A DNA stretch of 64,000 nt from NCBI GenBank assembly GCA_024404025.1, contig JAKSQP010000002.1:62001-126000 (forward strand). Reading direction: 5' to 3'. The DNA comes from Clostridia bacterium (GTDB lineage Bacteria > Bacillota > Clostridia > Oscillospirales > Acutalibacteraceae). The notes beneath the pieces were generated by a model that was given only the letters and a program-made list of their open reading frames with translations, had not been told where the DNA came from and ran no database searches. Below, piece by piece: positions 933 to 12,811 of the stretch. Position numbers and translations under genes: made by a program. Each line of letters opens with the position of its first letter. Positions within the stretch are counted from its first letter, which is position 1.

Positions 933-1090
933 AATAATTTTCTCGATTCTTTAAGCAAAAGTGAGCCGAACTAAATATGATTTGACGACACCTTTTTGCC
1001 GATATTTCGTTAAAAATGCTCGGAATACACAAAGTGTTCCTGCGCTTTTCGCCGAATGAGGGCGATGAAGCGGATAACCGCTTTAAAGTG

Positions 1091-1119
1091 AAAGAAAAAG
1101 CGCCGCAGAAATGCAGCGC
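1091..1119 (-). terminator. Intrinsic terminator of the PC4-like gene
   Basis: On the minus strand, an 8-bp GC-rich stem with one G-U pair (1100-1107 with 1112-1119) and a TTTC loop is followed by a T-rich tract (1091-1099). It sits 20 nt past the stop of the gene ending at 1139. Confidence 0.75.
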
Positions 1120-1138
1120 AGAGAAAGCGAATGAATAA

Positions 1139-1357
1139 TTATTTGAGAGCTTTAACAGCTTCTTTAAGAGCAGCCATTTCTTCCTGGCTGAGGGTAACGC
1201 CCTTACCCATCTTCTCATGCTCGGGAGCCCATTCTCTGATATCAAACTTGGGCTCTCTGCCGTTCCAGCTGATGAGATTGAGTTCTTTTGTCCAACCCTT
1301 GGGATTTTCTGAAAGAACTGCAACGGACTCAACGATTTCATAAGTAAACTCAGGCAT
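1139..1357 (-). CDS. YdbC-family PC4-like single-stranded DNA-binding protein
   Basis: Small protein (72 residues) of the YdbC/PC4 type, a fold related to the eukaryotic coactivator PC4 that binds single-stranded DNA. It carries the family pattern of a short beta-sheet region (WTKELNLISWNGREPKFDIREW) followed by a C-terminal helix (LSQEEMAALKEAVKAL). The longest ORF starts at 1387, but a good ribosome binding site (GAAAGGAG) lies 7 nt before the ATG at 1357, so the shorter form is chosen. It has its own sigma-A promoter and terminator, so it is probably monocistronic. In vivo role in Clostridia is not established. Confidence 0.8.
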   Translation of the reverse strand: MPEFTYEIVESVAVLSENPKGWTKELNLISWNGREPKFDIREWAPEHEKMGKGVTLSQEEMAALKEAVKALK

Positions 1358-1391
1358 AACGGTTCTCCTTTCATCAGTATTTTTCAAGGAT

Positions 1392-1420
1392 ATTATATAA
1401 TATTATTTTATAAATGTAAA
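1392..1420 (-). promoter_or_regulatory. Sigma-A-like promoter for the PC4-like gene
   Basis: On the minus strand TTTACA (1420-1415) and TATAAT (1397-1392) are separated by 17 nt, about 35 nt upstream of the ATG at 1357. Confidence 0.7.
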
Positions 1421-1533
1421 TAGGATAATAAAAATATTTTTAAAAATATTTTAAAATTAATACATTTTTTCATCATAAATCGGACAGGTGGTGAATATTA
1501 TTTACAAAAAGAACATTTCTGAAAGGAGAAACC

Positions 1534-3069
1534 ATGGATTATAAAAAAGAAATCAAGAATATAGGGCTTTTTGAAAGAGTGTGCGAAGCAAGCGCTGATC
1601 ACGCTCTTGATGCTGAACTGAATCTGCCGGATTATTGCCCCGCAATTCAGAGAATAATAAAATGCAGCATCATTCCGAACGTCATTTCAAGCCGCATTCA
1701 GTCCGGAAAAATAACTGCCGAAATAAATGCCGTTATCAGATTGGTATATGCCGATGAAAGCGGAAATATCGCTTCCTTTGAGCAGAGCGATTCATTTGAA
1801 AAATCCGTTGAACATTCATCAATAACTCAGGACTGCATTTCGGATATAAGAATCAAAACCGATTATGTCAATTGCAGAGCAACAAGCCCGAGAAAAGCCG
1901 ATATAAGGTCTATGATCAGAATAATATGCAGCGTTTCAAAAAAGAGAAGCGAAGATATTCTCGTTGATGTAAACGGCTGCGGAATCCAGACAATGAAGGA
2001 TTCCGTTCAGGCGGCATCCGTAACGGCTCTCAATCAGAAAATTTTCAGCGTCAGCGAAATCAAAGAAATTTCGGATGATAAGCCTGTTGTTGTTTCGATT
2101 CTGAATTCGCAGGCAAATGCTGTTTGCAGCGAAATAAAAGTAATCAATAACAAAGCATTGATTAAAGGTGAATGTAATGTAAAAGTATATTATATATATA
2201 ATGAAAAAGGGGATGTCGAATGCGCAGAGCATAATATGCCCATAAGCCAGATAATTGAAGCCGAAGGGCTCGCTGAAGATAACAATGTCAATGTTTCTCT
2301 TTCGGTTTATTTCTGCGAAGTTTATTCAAAGGTAAATTCAAACGGCGAAATGCGTCAGCTCGATATAAATGTCGGAATAGGCTCATATCTTGTTTCGTTT
2401 GAAGAAAATCCCGTTTCGTTCATTACAGATGCTTATTCAACCTCGTACGACCTCGTAAACACAACAAAAAGCATAGAAGTTATGTCTTTCAACAAAAAAA
2501 TAGACAACAGCTTCACAAATAAAACCGTTCTTGAAAGCATCGGAGTCAGCGTTGAAAGAATAATATGTTCTTCATGCAGCGATATGTCATATACATACGC
2601 TCTCAAGGATTCAAACTGCCAGATAAGCGGCAGTTATGAAATAACCGTTCTTTATGTTGATTCTGAAAAGCAGATAGGAATAATCAAAAAGCCGATAACA
2701 TTTGACTATTCGGTTGCTTTGAATATGCCTGCGGAATCAATAAGGTGCCTCGGAGGAGTTTCGTTAATCGGCTGCAGCTGCGCCGCAACGGGAGAAAGCA
2801 GGCTCGAAATCAAGGCCGAAATGTTTGCAAGCTTCTGCGTTTTCAATTGCAGAATCAAAAAATATATTTCCGCAATCGAAACAGGGGAAATATCATCGAA
2901 TAAAAATGACAAAAGCAGCCTGACGATTTATTTTGCGGATAAAGGCGAAGCCGTATGGAATATTGCAAGAAAATATTGCACAACGGTTGAAGCAATAACG
3001 GAAGAAAACGAACTCAATGAAAGAATTCTCGATTCATCCAGAATGCTTCTGATTCCGCTTGCGGAATGA
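1534..3069 (+). CDS. sipL: SipL-like spore protein with SPOCS (DUF3794) domains and C-terminal LysM
   Basis: Spore morphogenesis protein of the SipL family. In clostridia SipL binds the SpoIVA ATPase through its LysM domain and helps localise the coat around the forespore. The 511-residue protein has SPOCS/DUF3794-type repeats over roughly residues 30-450 and a LysM module at about 465-510 (FADKGEAVWNIARKY onward). The ATG follows a strong ribosome binding site (GAAAGGAG). Length and domain order match clostridial SipL. The upstream region has a poor sigma-E-like candidate (CATAAAT, then AATATTAT), not strong enough to annotate. Mother-cell expression is inferred from the family. Confidence 0.85.
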   Translation: MDYKKEIKNIGLFERVCEASADHALDAELNLPDYCPAIQRIIKCSIIPNVISSRIQSGKITAEINAVIRLVYADESGNIASFEQSDSFEKSVEHSSITQDCISDIRIKTDYVNCRATSPRKADIRSMIRIICSVSKKRSEDILVDVNGCGIQTMKDSVQAASVTALNQKIFSVSEIKEISDDKPVVVSILNSQANAVCSEIKVINNKALIKGECNVKVYYIYNEKGDVECAEHNMPISQIIEAEGLAEDNNVNVSLSVYFCEVYSKVNSNGEMRQLDINVGIGSYLVSFEENPVSFITDAYSTSYDLVNTTKSIEVMSFNKKIDNSFTNKTVLESIGVSVERIICSSCSDMSYTYALKDSNCQISGSYEITVLYVDSEKQIGIIKKPITFDYSVALNMPAESIRCLGGVSLIGCSCAATGESRLEIKAEMFASFCVFNCRIKKYISAIETGEISSNKNDKSSLTIYFADKGEAVWNIARKYCTTVEAITEENELNERILDSSRMLLIPLAE

Positions 3070-3077
3070 ATGTATAT

Positions 3078-3121
3078 TTCATAATGATTTGAAAAAAATA
3101 TATCTGATAAATCATTATGAA
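3078..3121. promoter_or_regulatory. 13-bp inverted repeat between sipL and the thioredoxin gene
   Basis: TTCATAATGATTT (3078-3090) is repeated exactly in inverted form at 3109-3121, with an 18-nt spacer. The right arm abuts the ribosome binding site of the thioredoxin gene. It has no T tract, so it is a poor intrinsic terminator; it could be an operator or a translational-control hairpin. Confidence 0.45.
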
Positions 3122-3132
3122 AGGAAACAGAT

Positions 3133-3453
3133 ATGAAAATATATGATGTGACTTCAGATACATTTCAGAAAGAAGTTAAAGAATATGACGGCACAGTCCT
3201 GCTCGATTTCTTTTCGGAGGGATGCAGCCCCTGCAAAAAACTTTCTCCGATTATCGAAGAGGTTGCAGACGAAGCAAAGTCCGAAACAAAAATATGTAAA
3301 ATCAATGTTGATAAGGAAAAAATACTGACCGAAAAATTCGGAATAATGAGCATTCCAACGCTCATCGTTATGAAAAACGGCGAAATCATCAACAGAAGCA
3401 TCGGTATAACTAAAAAAAGCGCAATAATTGATATGCTTGAAGAAAGCAACTGA
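3133..3453 (+). CDS. Thioredoxin family protein with CSPC active site
   Basis: Cytoplasmic dithiol-disulfide oxidoreductase of the thioredoxin fold, 106 residues, the usual length for a single-domain thioredoxin. The redox pair is C31-S-P-C34, preceded by LLDFFSEG where classical thioredoxins have LVDFWAEW; the cis-proline motif is in MSIPTL. The active site CSPC replaces the canonical CGPC, which shifts redox potential in studied variants, so its partner may not be the standard thioredoxin reductase. Ribosome binding site AAAGGAAAC is well placed. It follows sipL by 63 nt and could be co-transcribed with it, but an inverted repeat intervenes and a terminator follows. Confidence 0.85.
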   Translation: MKIYDVTSDTFQKEVKEYDGTVLLDFFSEGCSPCKKLSPIIEEVADEAKSETKICKINVDKEKILTEKFGIMSIPTLIVMKNGEIINRSIGITKKSAIIDMLEESN

Positions 3454-11002: not shown

Positions 11003-11040
11003 AAAAGGATTTTCAGATCGGATGAACTGAAAATCCTTTT
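11003..11040. terminator. Bidirectional terminator between convergent genes
   Basis: A perfect 14-bp stem (11003-11016 with 11027-11040) with A- and T-rich flanks lies between the stops of the MgtC gene and the minus-strand gene ending at 11045. Confidence 0.8.
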
Positions 11041-11044
11041 CGTT

Positions 11045-11887
11045 TTAATTAATATGTTTGATTTTTCTTATTCCTTTTAATTTGGAAATCTTGTTTTCAA
11101 GAAGTACAAGAATTATGCAACAAAGAACCGCAACAAGAACAAATAATATGCAAACGAGAATTGCGTAACGCATTGCAAAATTGATCGCTTTTCCGACGGC
11201 GGGAACATATTTTTTTACCAATCCGTAACATTGAGAATGCTGAACGGAATTTTTGATCGCATAACCGTTATCAATGGAAATTGTGTTAATGAACTGATTC
11301 GGACCGTTCTGATAGGTGTTCTTAACTATCTGAATTTCGCAGCCGTTTCCGCTTGATGAGGGAACGCACACAACATCGTTTGAATTATATCCGTTTATAT
11401 CAACCTTTTTAGAAATGATCAGATCGCCCTGTTTAACGCCGAGCTGCTCTGTGCTTACGCTTTGCGTATTGAAGCAATATCCTCCGATATCAAGGCCGTC
11501 GTTATCAAGGAATATCGAAACAAAGCATCCCAGAACAAAAGCAAGAACAGTTAAAGCAAGAAAAACAATCATAACAATTTTTACGGCAGCAAGACCTTTG
11601 ATGCTCTTGGGCTCATCATTATTTTCTTTTGTTTTATCTGTATTTTTTTCGTCTTTTTCGTATTCGCTGTTGTCTTCAATAACTTTTTTGAAAATCTCTT
11701 GTCTCTCTTTTTCAATAAGCGGAGTATCTTCTTCCTGCTTGTTCGGAGAAACAGCATTGCTCTGCTCCGCATTATTTAATTTCGGAATAAGATTATCTTT
11801 TGAAATTGATTTTGCTTCCTTTTCTTCAATAAATTTTCTGAAAGCATTATCAAACTCTTCTATATCTCTCAGTTTGAACTGTTCCAT
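11045..11887 (-). CDS. Bitopic membrane protein with degenerate signal-peptidase-I-like domain
   Basis: 280-residue membrane protein. Residues 1-100 are highly charged and probably cytoplasmic coiled coil; 101-127 is a first membrane helix; 130-235 is an extracytoplasmic domain; 240-263 a second helix with a basic tail. The external domain resembles SipW/Sec11-type signal peptidases: a GDLIISKKVD box, a following NSNDVV, and YGLVKKYVPAVGK before the last helix, as in their C-termini. Where SipW has SGSMEP it has SVSTEQ (S143-Q148), so a serine is kept, but the segment that should hold the catalytic histidine reads CEIQIVK. It is therefore probably not an active peptidase. It follows a DivIVA-like gene by 18 nt. 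Confidence 0.6.
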   Translation of the reverse strand: MEQFKLRDIEEFDNAFRKFIEEKEAKSISKDNLIPKLNNAEQSNAVSPNKQEEDTPLIEKERQEIFKKVIEDNSEYEKDEKNTDKTKENNDEPKSIKGLAAVKIVMIVFLALTVLAFVLGCFVSIFLDNDGLDIGGYCFNTQSVSTEQLGVKQGDLIISKKVDINGYNSNDVVCVPSSSGNGCEIQIVKNTYQNGPNQFINTISIDNGYAIKNSVQHSQCYGLVKKYVPAVGKAINFAMRYAILVCILFVLVAVLCCIILVLLENKISKLKGIRKIKHIN

Positions 11888-11905
11888 ATCACAAACTGCC
11901 TTTCA

Positions 11906-12211
11906 TTATTTTGAAATCTTGGCTTTTAAAGCTGCCGATTCTGTTGAGAGCTTCTCGGAAAGGGAAGCAATGTTTTCAACATCCGAAATTAAATCGGATT
12001 CTACCGGTGAGCCTTCAATTGATGATTTGAGATTTTTATTTTCGTTTGAAAGAGCAAGGCAGATTTTTTTCAGCTTTTCATTATTTGAACCGACCGTTTT
12101 GGCATATTCGTAAATTTTTTTATATTCCTTTTTAAGGGCTGAAATATACTGTTCAACATCCTCACAATTATATCCATCCTGTGCAATGCGAAATAAATTC
12201 TTTGTTTCCAT
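11906..12211 (-). CDS. Small DivIVA-like coiled-coil protein
   Basis: 101-residue cytoplasmic protein. The N-terminus FRIAQDGYNCEDVEQYISALKK (split over residues 6-28) fits the DivIVA N-terminal lipid-binding signature, a GYN..EV..Y motif followed by a coiled coil; the remainder is helical and rich in Lys, Glu and Ser. DivIVA-type proteins sit at curved or septal membrane and recruit partners. The ORF could start six bases earlier, but that ATG is only 3 nt from AAGGAG, so the second ATG (12211) is chosen. It is first in a two-gene unit with the degenerate signal-peptidase-like membrane protein. Exact role unknown. Confidence 0.65.
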   Translation of the reverse strand: METKNLFRIAQDGYNCEDVEQYISALKKEYKKIYEYAKTVGSNNEKLKKICLALSNENKNLKSSIEGSPVESDLISDVENIASLSEKLSTESAALKAKISK

Positions 12212-12246
12212 CTGCATTTTCTCCTTATTGAAAATTTACAAAAATA

Positions 12247-12385: not shown

Positions 12386-12811
12386 ATGAATACAGAGTTT
12401 ATTCTATGGATTGTTTCTCTGATTGCATTCATTGTTGTTGAAGCGGTCACGGCTCAGCTTGTAACGATATGGTTTGCCGCCGGAGCGCTTTGTGCATTGG
12501 TTGCCGAAGTTCTTGATGCTCCTTTGTGGCTTCAATTAACGATATTCGTTGTTGTTTCAGCTATCACACTTGCAGCAACAAGACCTCTTGTAAAAAAGAT
12601 GAAAAGCAATCCTTCGGTTTCAACGAATGCCGACAGTATCATCGGTCAGAAAGCTCTCGTAACGGAAGATATTGATAATCTTGCCGCAAAGGGCAGGGCA
12701 GATATAAACGGTATGAGCTGGTCAGCTCGCTCGGAGGATAACACCAAAATTCCTGCCGGAACAGAGGTCGTTGTCCGGAGAATCGAGGGCGTAAAGCTTA
12801 TTGTAAAATAA
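12386..12811 (+). CDS. NfeD family membrane protein
   Basis: 141-residue NfeD-like protein: two or three N-terminal membrane helices (residues 5-75) with the family AAGALCALVAE-type packing, then a soluble OB-fold domain (about 80-141) with GQKALVTEDI and GTEVVVRRIEGVKLIV. NfeD proteins are the dedicated partners of SPFH/stomatin-type scaffolds at the membrane. Ribosome binding site GAAAGGAG precedes the ATG. The SPFH gene follows 18 nt later, the standard arrangement, and both share one promoter and one terminator. Confidence 0.9.
   Translation: MNTEFILWIVSLIAFIVVEAVTAQLVTIWFAAGALCALVAEVLDAPLWLQLTIFVVVSAITLAATRPLVKKMKSNPSVSTNADSIIGQKALVTEDIDNLAAKGRADINGMSWSARSEDNTKIPAGTEVVVRRIEGVKLIVK

Follow-up and report, generated by a model that had tools for sequence, protein, structure and literature searches.

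Why should a small DivIVA-like protein be encoded directly upstream of a membrane protein that resembles a signal peptidase and appears to have lost its catalytic residues? The question is raised by a minus-strand locus in the 64,000-nucleotide stretch of DNA, from a gut bacterium of the Clostridia, analysed here (the window). Gene A (11906..12217, minus strand) encodes a DivIVA/GpsB-like protein of 103 aa, and gene B (11045..11887, minus strand) encodes a two-helix membrane protein of 280 aa with an apparently inactive external domain of the SipW/Sec11 type; 18 nt separate the stop codon of A from the ATG of B, and the two constitute a two-gene minus-strand unit. When the frames were re-read, both genes lay where the earlier note on this DNA had placed them. 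That note began A at the second ATG (12211, giving 101 aa), the same start as in most relatives. A divergent gene upstream of A begins at 12386. Between B and the convergent gene on its other side lies a perfect 14-bp inverted repeat, identified by eye (AAAAGGATTTTCAG/CTGAAAATCCTTTT, 11003..11040), which is probably a two-way terminator closing the unit; with its loop of 10 it is absent from the repeat scan, which allowed loops of 3-8 bases. The unit had also been credited with its own promoter, a claim not supported by the promoter-site scan: four promoter-like sites were counted on both strands together versus 6.2 expected, and none above chance was found for the unit.

The DivIVA-like domain of A spans approximately residues 1-65 (12017..12211, minus strand; Pfam DivIVA 7-65), with the pattern LF..GYN..DVEQYI..LK.EY followed by the coiled coil. 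Window A alone matches Pfam DivIVA weakly (E 0.0012, 19.3 bits, under the cut-off of 28) and the GpsB model at E 4.6e-5, under that model's cut-off. All 22 of the aligned A proteins match Pfam DivIVA at E<=0.1, the best at 2e-8, and the A-protein profile finds GpsB chains as its best PDB sequences (E 0.0017). The earlier assignment of A as a DivIVA-type coiled coil is therefore upheld by the aligned proteins, with window A itself sub-cut-off. In a model of the A-B read-through, which yields helices and no contact information and whose fold search returned the B domain again, the A part forms helices 16-65 and 72-109. By its sequence relationships, A is a DivIVA/GpsB-type protein with a GY..(E/D)V(D/E) N-terminal domain and a coiled coil.

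As predicted, B would run, in order along the minus strand, from a short N-terminal motif through a long linker (approximately residues 29-96, mostly of low confidence in the model) into a first transmembrane helix (approximately residues 97-127, 11507..11599; a hydrophobic AlphaFold helix at 97-127), an external SipW/Sec11-type domain (approximately residues 131-230, 11198..11497; delimited by hhalign and fold matches) and a second transmembrane helix (approximately residues 236-275, 11063..11182; AlphaFold helices 231-240 and 242-279). The positive tail ISKLKGIRKIKHIN suggests that the C-terminus lies inside. The AlphaFold model has a mean pLDDT of 77, with block values of 84-96 across residues 131-230, and the strings previously quoted from B are present: SVSTEQ (143-148), GDLIISKK (154-161) and YVPAVGK (227-233).

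The relationship of this external domain to signal peptidases emerges from comparison of profiles. Alignment by hhalign of 29 whole B proteins with 14 S26B-type peptidases gave 99.2% (E 1.4e-19), and external domains stripped of membrane helices still matched the same 14 peptidases with a probability of 98.5 and a score of 83.2, against a maximum of 19.0 among 100 column shuffles. Single-protein family scans of window B returned no signal peptidase, and the B profile found none among PDB sequences up to E 1. When the 29 B proteins were run against NCBIfam, TIGR02228 matched four (best 2.5e-7) and the SipW model four (best 7.8e-7); unrelated families were matched too, at weaker E-values, and the unrelated SAG1386/EF1546 family (best 1.5e-4) took in five of the 29, more members than the peptidase models. 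A Foldseek search of the PDB with the B model ranked chain A of the human signal peptidase complex C first (E 4.4e-3) and the complex A chain third (E 8.4e-3), no match falling below 0.001; we take these chains to be Sec11C and Sec11A. The first six VIA-align matches (Z 8.6 to 7.5) comprise LexA domains (8.6), the inactive homologue SipA (8.4) and the human complex C chain (7.5), with Tudor and chromatin domains close behind at Z 6.3-7.3 and a warning from the tool that Z below 8 can reflect a common arrangement. Because this margin is small, the fold agrees with the profiles but is not decisive alone. The resemblance proposed in the earlier note is thus borne out by profile scores above those of shuffles and, less decisively, by a predicted fold that does match signal peptidase. 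On the profile evidence, the external domain of B is an S26B (SipW/Sec11) signal-peptidase homologue.

The state of the active site was read from a joint alignment of 66 external domains. The catalytic serine position of window B is occupied by Thr146 (11450..11452, minus strand) and the catalytic histidine position by Gln186 (11330..11332, minus strand). The earlier note had put the serine position one residue away, at S145; its observation that histidine is absent where one was expected holds. Across the window genus, serine is found in 0, histidine in 4 and aspartate in 0 of 29 B proteins at the catalytic columns. Signal peptidases not adjoining an A gene retain the three residues in 13, 14 and 13 of 14, and paired peptidases called intact in 11, 11 and 11 of 11, a count that checks the alignment and is no separate test, the labels "intact" and "dead" having come from the same motifs. 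The other paired proteins called dead (n = 7) have serine in 0, histidine in 0 and aspartate in 3, and the fused or coiled-coil-bearing proteins (n = 5) have serine in 1 and neither of the others. As aligned, the catalytic Ser, His and Asp are lost in the window genus, and B is apparently an inactive peptidase. Could B still cut by means of other residues, such as the external cysteine C183 of the GC[DE]I box? This cysteine is nearly invariant in one alignment of B (A2) and present in 26 of the 29 rows of another (A1), and the histidine of the four genus members mentioned above might be read in the same sense. The serine and aspartate are, however, gone from every genus protein, the histidine column varies, the cysteine is missing from the three most divergent members of the genus (L029-L031), and no activity was detected for SipA, itself related to signal peptidases and devoid of catalytic residues, in the part of PMC4049620 consulted. 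We consider a surviving peptidase very improbable.

Further signal-peptidase-like genes lie elsewhere in the same genome. Two stand in tandem on another contig (G000:C6; L033 and L034), both with an SMxPT serine box, and an intact-looking SipW gene (G000:C33, L032) adjoins one whose product matches TIGR04088, the SipW-type signal peptide model, over its cut-off. With this intact-looking SipW at hand, B might act as a decoy that restrains this enzyme or its substrates, an idea to which the peptide cleft of SipA, kept though the protein is inactive (PMC4049620, in part), lends some plausibility. However, the SipW and A-B loci are on different contigs (C33 and C12) with nothing linking them, and a decoy would have no need of a DivIVA-like partner; we regard it as unlikely.

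An apparently dead enzyme could also be a gene in decay. For the external domain, dN/dS was 0.03-0.35 in eight of nine species pairs, the ninth not being computable, and for the N-terminus and linker of B it was 0.08-0.33, about as constrained, with dS near or above 1 in most of the pairs. The values for the external domain rule out B as a decaying pseudogene.

Is the association of A with B a property of this locus or of a lineage? Using a single sequence, B was found in 32 of 45 genomes of the genus, and in 14 of the 15 that are >=90% complete and <=5% contaminated; the B profile added one more genome (G007). Thirty genus loci were read, and in 29 of them A immediately precedes B; in the other (L015) the contig ends at B. 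The pairing recurs outside the genus, and the neighbourhood on which the earlier proposal depended is confirmed. The pair is also present in 21 of 21 loci of named records, assigned to Clostridia, Clostridiales, Clostridiaceae, Ruminococcaceae or Oscillospiraceae; these are mostly the same contigs and hence not independent.

In 250 genomes of the family, the A profile matched 28 genomes at 36 places. Twenty of these adjoin an S26B-like gene or share one frame with it (4 in the genus; 16 outside it, 9 genera), 14 do neither, and 2 lie at contig ends. The informative places outside the genus number 30, and 16 of them are paired or fused. Chance pairing was ruled out as an explanation, the binomial probability of 16/30 being 6e-33 or 1e-24 for an assumed chance of 0.003 or 0.01 per place, with genome kinship ignored. 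The catalytic motifs are intact in eight of these 16 and not in the other eight (by eye; most by alignment). Of the 14 unpaired places, four are canonical DivIVA genes (by eye), one has a class B sortase gene as its neighbour, two have a gene for a small motif protein, and seven are of other kinds. A later sample of the family gave matches in 50 of 398 genomes, with 27 new places, three of them genus loci already read; the remaining 24 comprise six split pairs, one fusion, 15 unpaired places and two at contig ends (L209 and L212). One of the six split pairs (L210) has no peptidase-profile match, its partner being recognised by position, layout and motif only.

Across the order, the A profile matched 91 of 394 genomes at 99 places. 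Forty-two new places were read, a non-random set made up of the 28 best and 14 hand-picked, and three proved to be pairs; L101, from an earlier search, makes a fourth, and the four belong to families f2 and f6. With only three pairs in 42, the idea of a universal partner for DivIVA relatives was rejected. Many A-like matches, in the family and order samples alike, adjoin other genes, and at 28 of the 42 order-sample places the next gene, counted by eye, is one that we take to be ileS- or lspA-like. Pairing or fusion of a DivIVA-like with a SipW-type protein therefore extends to further genera and two further families, in genomes that are largely draft MAGs, including the one holding the L217 neighbourhood; a genome with two pairs (G336) has 7% contamination. 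Since related pairs are often fully catalytic, the pairing is with signal peptidases generally, and the window genus carries a dead version of it.

In some relatives the two proteins have become one. Three genes (L046, L086 and L213) encode, in a single frame, a DivIVA-like N-terminus, a coiled coil, a membrane helix and a degenerate peptidase domain; the L046 product scores 30.1 bits against Pfam DivIVA (cut-off 28) and matches TIGR02228 at E 8.7e-7. A fourth (L053) has the same layout with a weak DivIVA match (E 0.025) and none with Pfam, and two more (L039 and L040) join a coiled coil to the peptidase domain with no DivIVA start. In all five of these fused or coiled-coil genes whose next gene was read (L039, L040, L053, L086 and L213), what follows is the same gene, presumably NAD-dependent epimerase/dehydratase-like.

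How often catalysis was lost can be asked of a tree of the 66 external domains. One cluster (97/94) takes in the genus proteins, the fused group, the g4 proteins and L125, while three long-branched proteins (L126, L149 and L203) are placed among the intact peptidases. Supported branches force at least two changes of the dead label ("pse"); the genus alone needs two, L029-L031 standing apart. The tree has few columns, long branches and unsettled bootstrap values, and the count is therefore only a minimum. Repeated loss of catalysis is likely, its number unsure.

What might hold A and B together is suggested by the N-terminus of B, a feature absent from the earlier note. The proposed docking motif (residues 6-17, LRDIEEFDNAFR; 11837..11872, minus strand) was delimited by motif counts, and the genus consensus starts FKLxSIDEFDxxF. 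In its strict form, [LIVFWM][DEN][EQND][LIFM][DNQ]xx[FY] within the first 40 residues, a pattern written after the discovery sequences had been seen, it is present in 29 of 29 genus B proteins and 12 of 15 paired proteins outside the genus, with 0.02 expected from shuffles, and in one of 14 signal peptidases not adjoining A (L045). A looser form finds 14 of the 15 versus two of the 14. These 15 discovery proteins are not independent, coming from eight genera of two families, with four from one genus and three near-identical ones from another. Among nine pairs read later, six carry the strict motif (two of three from the order sample and four of six from the family sample). A matrix built from the window genus only detects, at p<0.05, 13 of the 15 discovery proteins and again two of three and four of six of those read later, along with one of the 14 signal peptidases (L045) and one of eight hand-picked next-genes of unpaired A-like loci. 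Six proteins with A encoded upstream lack the strict motif (L148, L149, L150, L189, L217 and L226). Among those printed, the next genes of unpaired order-sample places show no strict motif, and a DNA-pattern search of the window's own genome gave B and two further matches only, in frames of 64 and 90 aa, the former lying inside a long gene on the opposite strand. The N-terminal motif is likely to be the tether of B to A.

Some occurrences of the motif lie outside the pairs. L045 carries it with no adjoining A gene; the A-like genes of its genome (G102) lie elsewhere. At two loci (L144, G269:C33, and L145, G058:C166) an A-like gene is followed by a gene for a motif protein of about 100 aa (LKTIDELNESF) with no peptidase domain; the A-like gene itself comes just after one that we take to be RodA/FtsW-like.

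DivIVA-like genes of this kind also precede genes for other envelope enzymes. In the same genus, a second DivIVA-like gene (L228, G002:C66, 454-870) stands directly before a gene for a class A penicillin-binding protein (950-3238); the DivIVA-like product matches Pfam DivIVA at E 0.003, under the cut-off, and its neighbour matches Transgly at 3.8e-56, and the two are perhaps GpsB plus its client. At L146 (G102:C101) such a gene directly precedes one whose product scores 166.9 bits, over the cut-off, against the class B sortase model TIGR03064; an adaptor of this type may here serve a different export enzyme. These neighbours, with the RodA/FtsW-like gene at L144/L145, could be taken to suggest that B is a sensor or receptor, in which an external ligand is signalled through the N-terminal tail to A, and A moves or reorganises wall enzymes; an external fold under selection, a membrane helix, a long linker and a motif would form a suitable layout. 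The data give no hint of a ligand or of an output, and the intact peptidases of related pairs favour the placing of an activity over sensing, leaving the sensor a modest chance of being correct.

The genes downstream of four intact pairs (L150, L148, L151 and L101) were tested with NCBIfam. TIGR04090, the BsaA family of SipW-dependent matrix proteins, is matched over its cut-off next to L150 (E 5.3e-28) and under it next to L148 (1.9e-7) and L151 (8.3e-7); the neighbour of L101 has no NCBIfam match. Export of BsaA from Clostridium perfringens depends on sipW, according to the portion of PMC7395162 used here. The neighbours of the window pair, read by eye, include no matrix gene. The dead peptidase of the L125 pair (G209:C12) has no serine box in the alignment, and the gene after it encodes a small protein, secreted-looking and matrix-protein-like by eye.

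The data presented above have led us to propose a model in which A and B are adaptor and membrane client. A would be a soluble coiled-coil protein that sits against the cytosolic side of the membrane at a particular site, for example the septum or pole, and the short helical N-terminal motif of B (FKLRDIEEFDNAF) would most likely dock on it. The ancestral job was probably the placing of a dedicated signal peptidase, since relatives keep intact peptidases in the same arrangement, some by BsaA-type genes. With the catalytic residues lost, in the window genus and in other lines, and the domain under selection, B is most likely now a placed, non-cutting module, which may bind an exported peptide or a partner enzyme. 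The interpretation of the earlier note is borne out in part: its pseudo-peptidase and its gene pair are supported, and its scaffold or substrate-presenting module tethered to a DivIVA-like organiser stays a conjecture. The roles given to A (adaptor), the motif (dock) and the B domain (binding module) follow the precedents of GpsB and SipA. What the sequences establish is the homology, the missing catalytic residues, the conserved pairs and fusions, the motif and the selection; the binding of A to B, their location, peptide binding and the ancestral job we infer. We hold this adaptor-client model to be the probable one, with considerable reservation. A broader reading, on which we are nearly evenly divided and lean slightly against, is that DivIVA-like adaptors across the order read an acidic motif and place export enzymes of gut Clostridia at one site, namely SipW-type peptidases and perhaps, through contacts of another sort, a sortase and a penicillin-binding protein; in several lines, the window genus included, the peptidase would repeatedly have become a dead but selected binding scaffold, and in others it would have fused with the adaptor.

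Little is understood of how bacteria restrict secretion and processing to one place on the cell. Genetic linkage of an adaptor to a signal peptidase, together with the fusions and the short motif, leads directly to testable predictions on interaction, motif deletion and localisation. If the model is true, a signal peptidase that has repeatedly lost its activity on the same adaptor, with its domain still under selection, would show cleanly how an enzyme can turn into a scaffold.

No described pair of a DivIVA-like protein and a signal peptidase was found among the listed titles and abstract openings of open-licence PubMed Central papers. A paper on the staphylococcal peptidase SpsB cites SecA as needed for the membrane targeting of DivIVA (PMC11898559). 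The external domain of B shares sequence profile and fold with SipW/Sec11 (S26B) peptidases, but the genus proteins are without the catalytic columns and have in addition a long cytosolic tail with a motif and a DivIVA-like gene. The sipW-bsaA operon of C. perfringens resembles L148, L150 and L151 in placing a SipW-type peptidase by BsaA matrix proteins; the word DivIVA is absent from PMC7395162, and near the window pair no matrix gene is visible by eye. SipA of Streptococcus pyogenes is, like B, a signal-peptidase relative without catalytic residues, has an essential job in pilus polymerisation and retains a peptide cleft (PMC4049620, as excerpted). It belongs to the Ser-Lys dyad branch of the fold, whereas the sequence models matching B are S26B-type, and it works in pilus assembly, with a DivIVA-like partner not mentioned in that excerpt; the surroundings of the window pair, read by eye, contain no pilus genes. 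GpsB works as an adaptor in the cytosol, where it binds membrane enzymes through their short helical segments; its Bacillus clients are PBP1, YpbE and YrrS (PMC6335420, in part). Its motif, as given there, is arginine-based, SRxxR(R/K), and by reading is absent from the cytosolic part of B, where the consensus is the acidic and hydrophobic FKLxSIDEFD. The client in our case is a signal-peptidase relative, and the A gene lies directly upstream of it or is fused to it. What the two systems would share, on the published description of GpsB consulted, is a small DivIVA-type cytosolic adaptor whose membrane clients are recognised by a short helical cytoplasmic segment.
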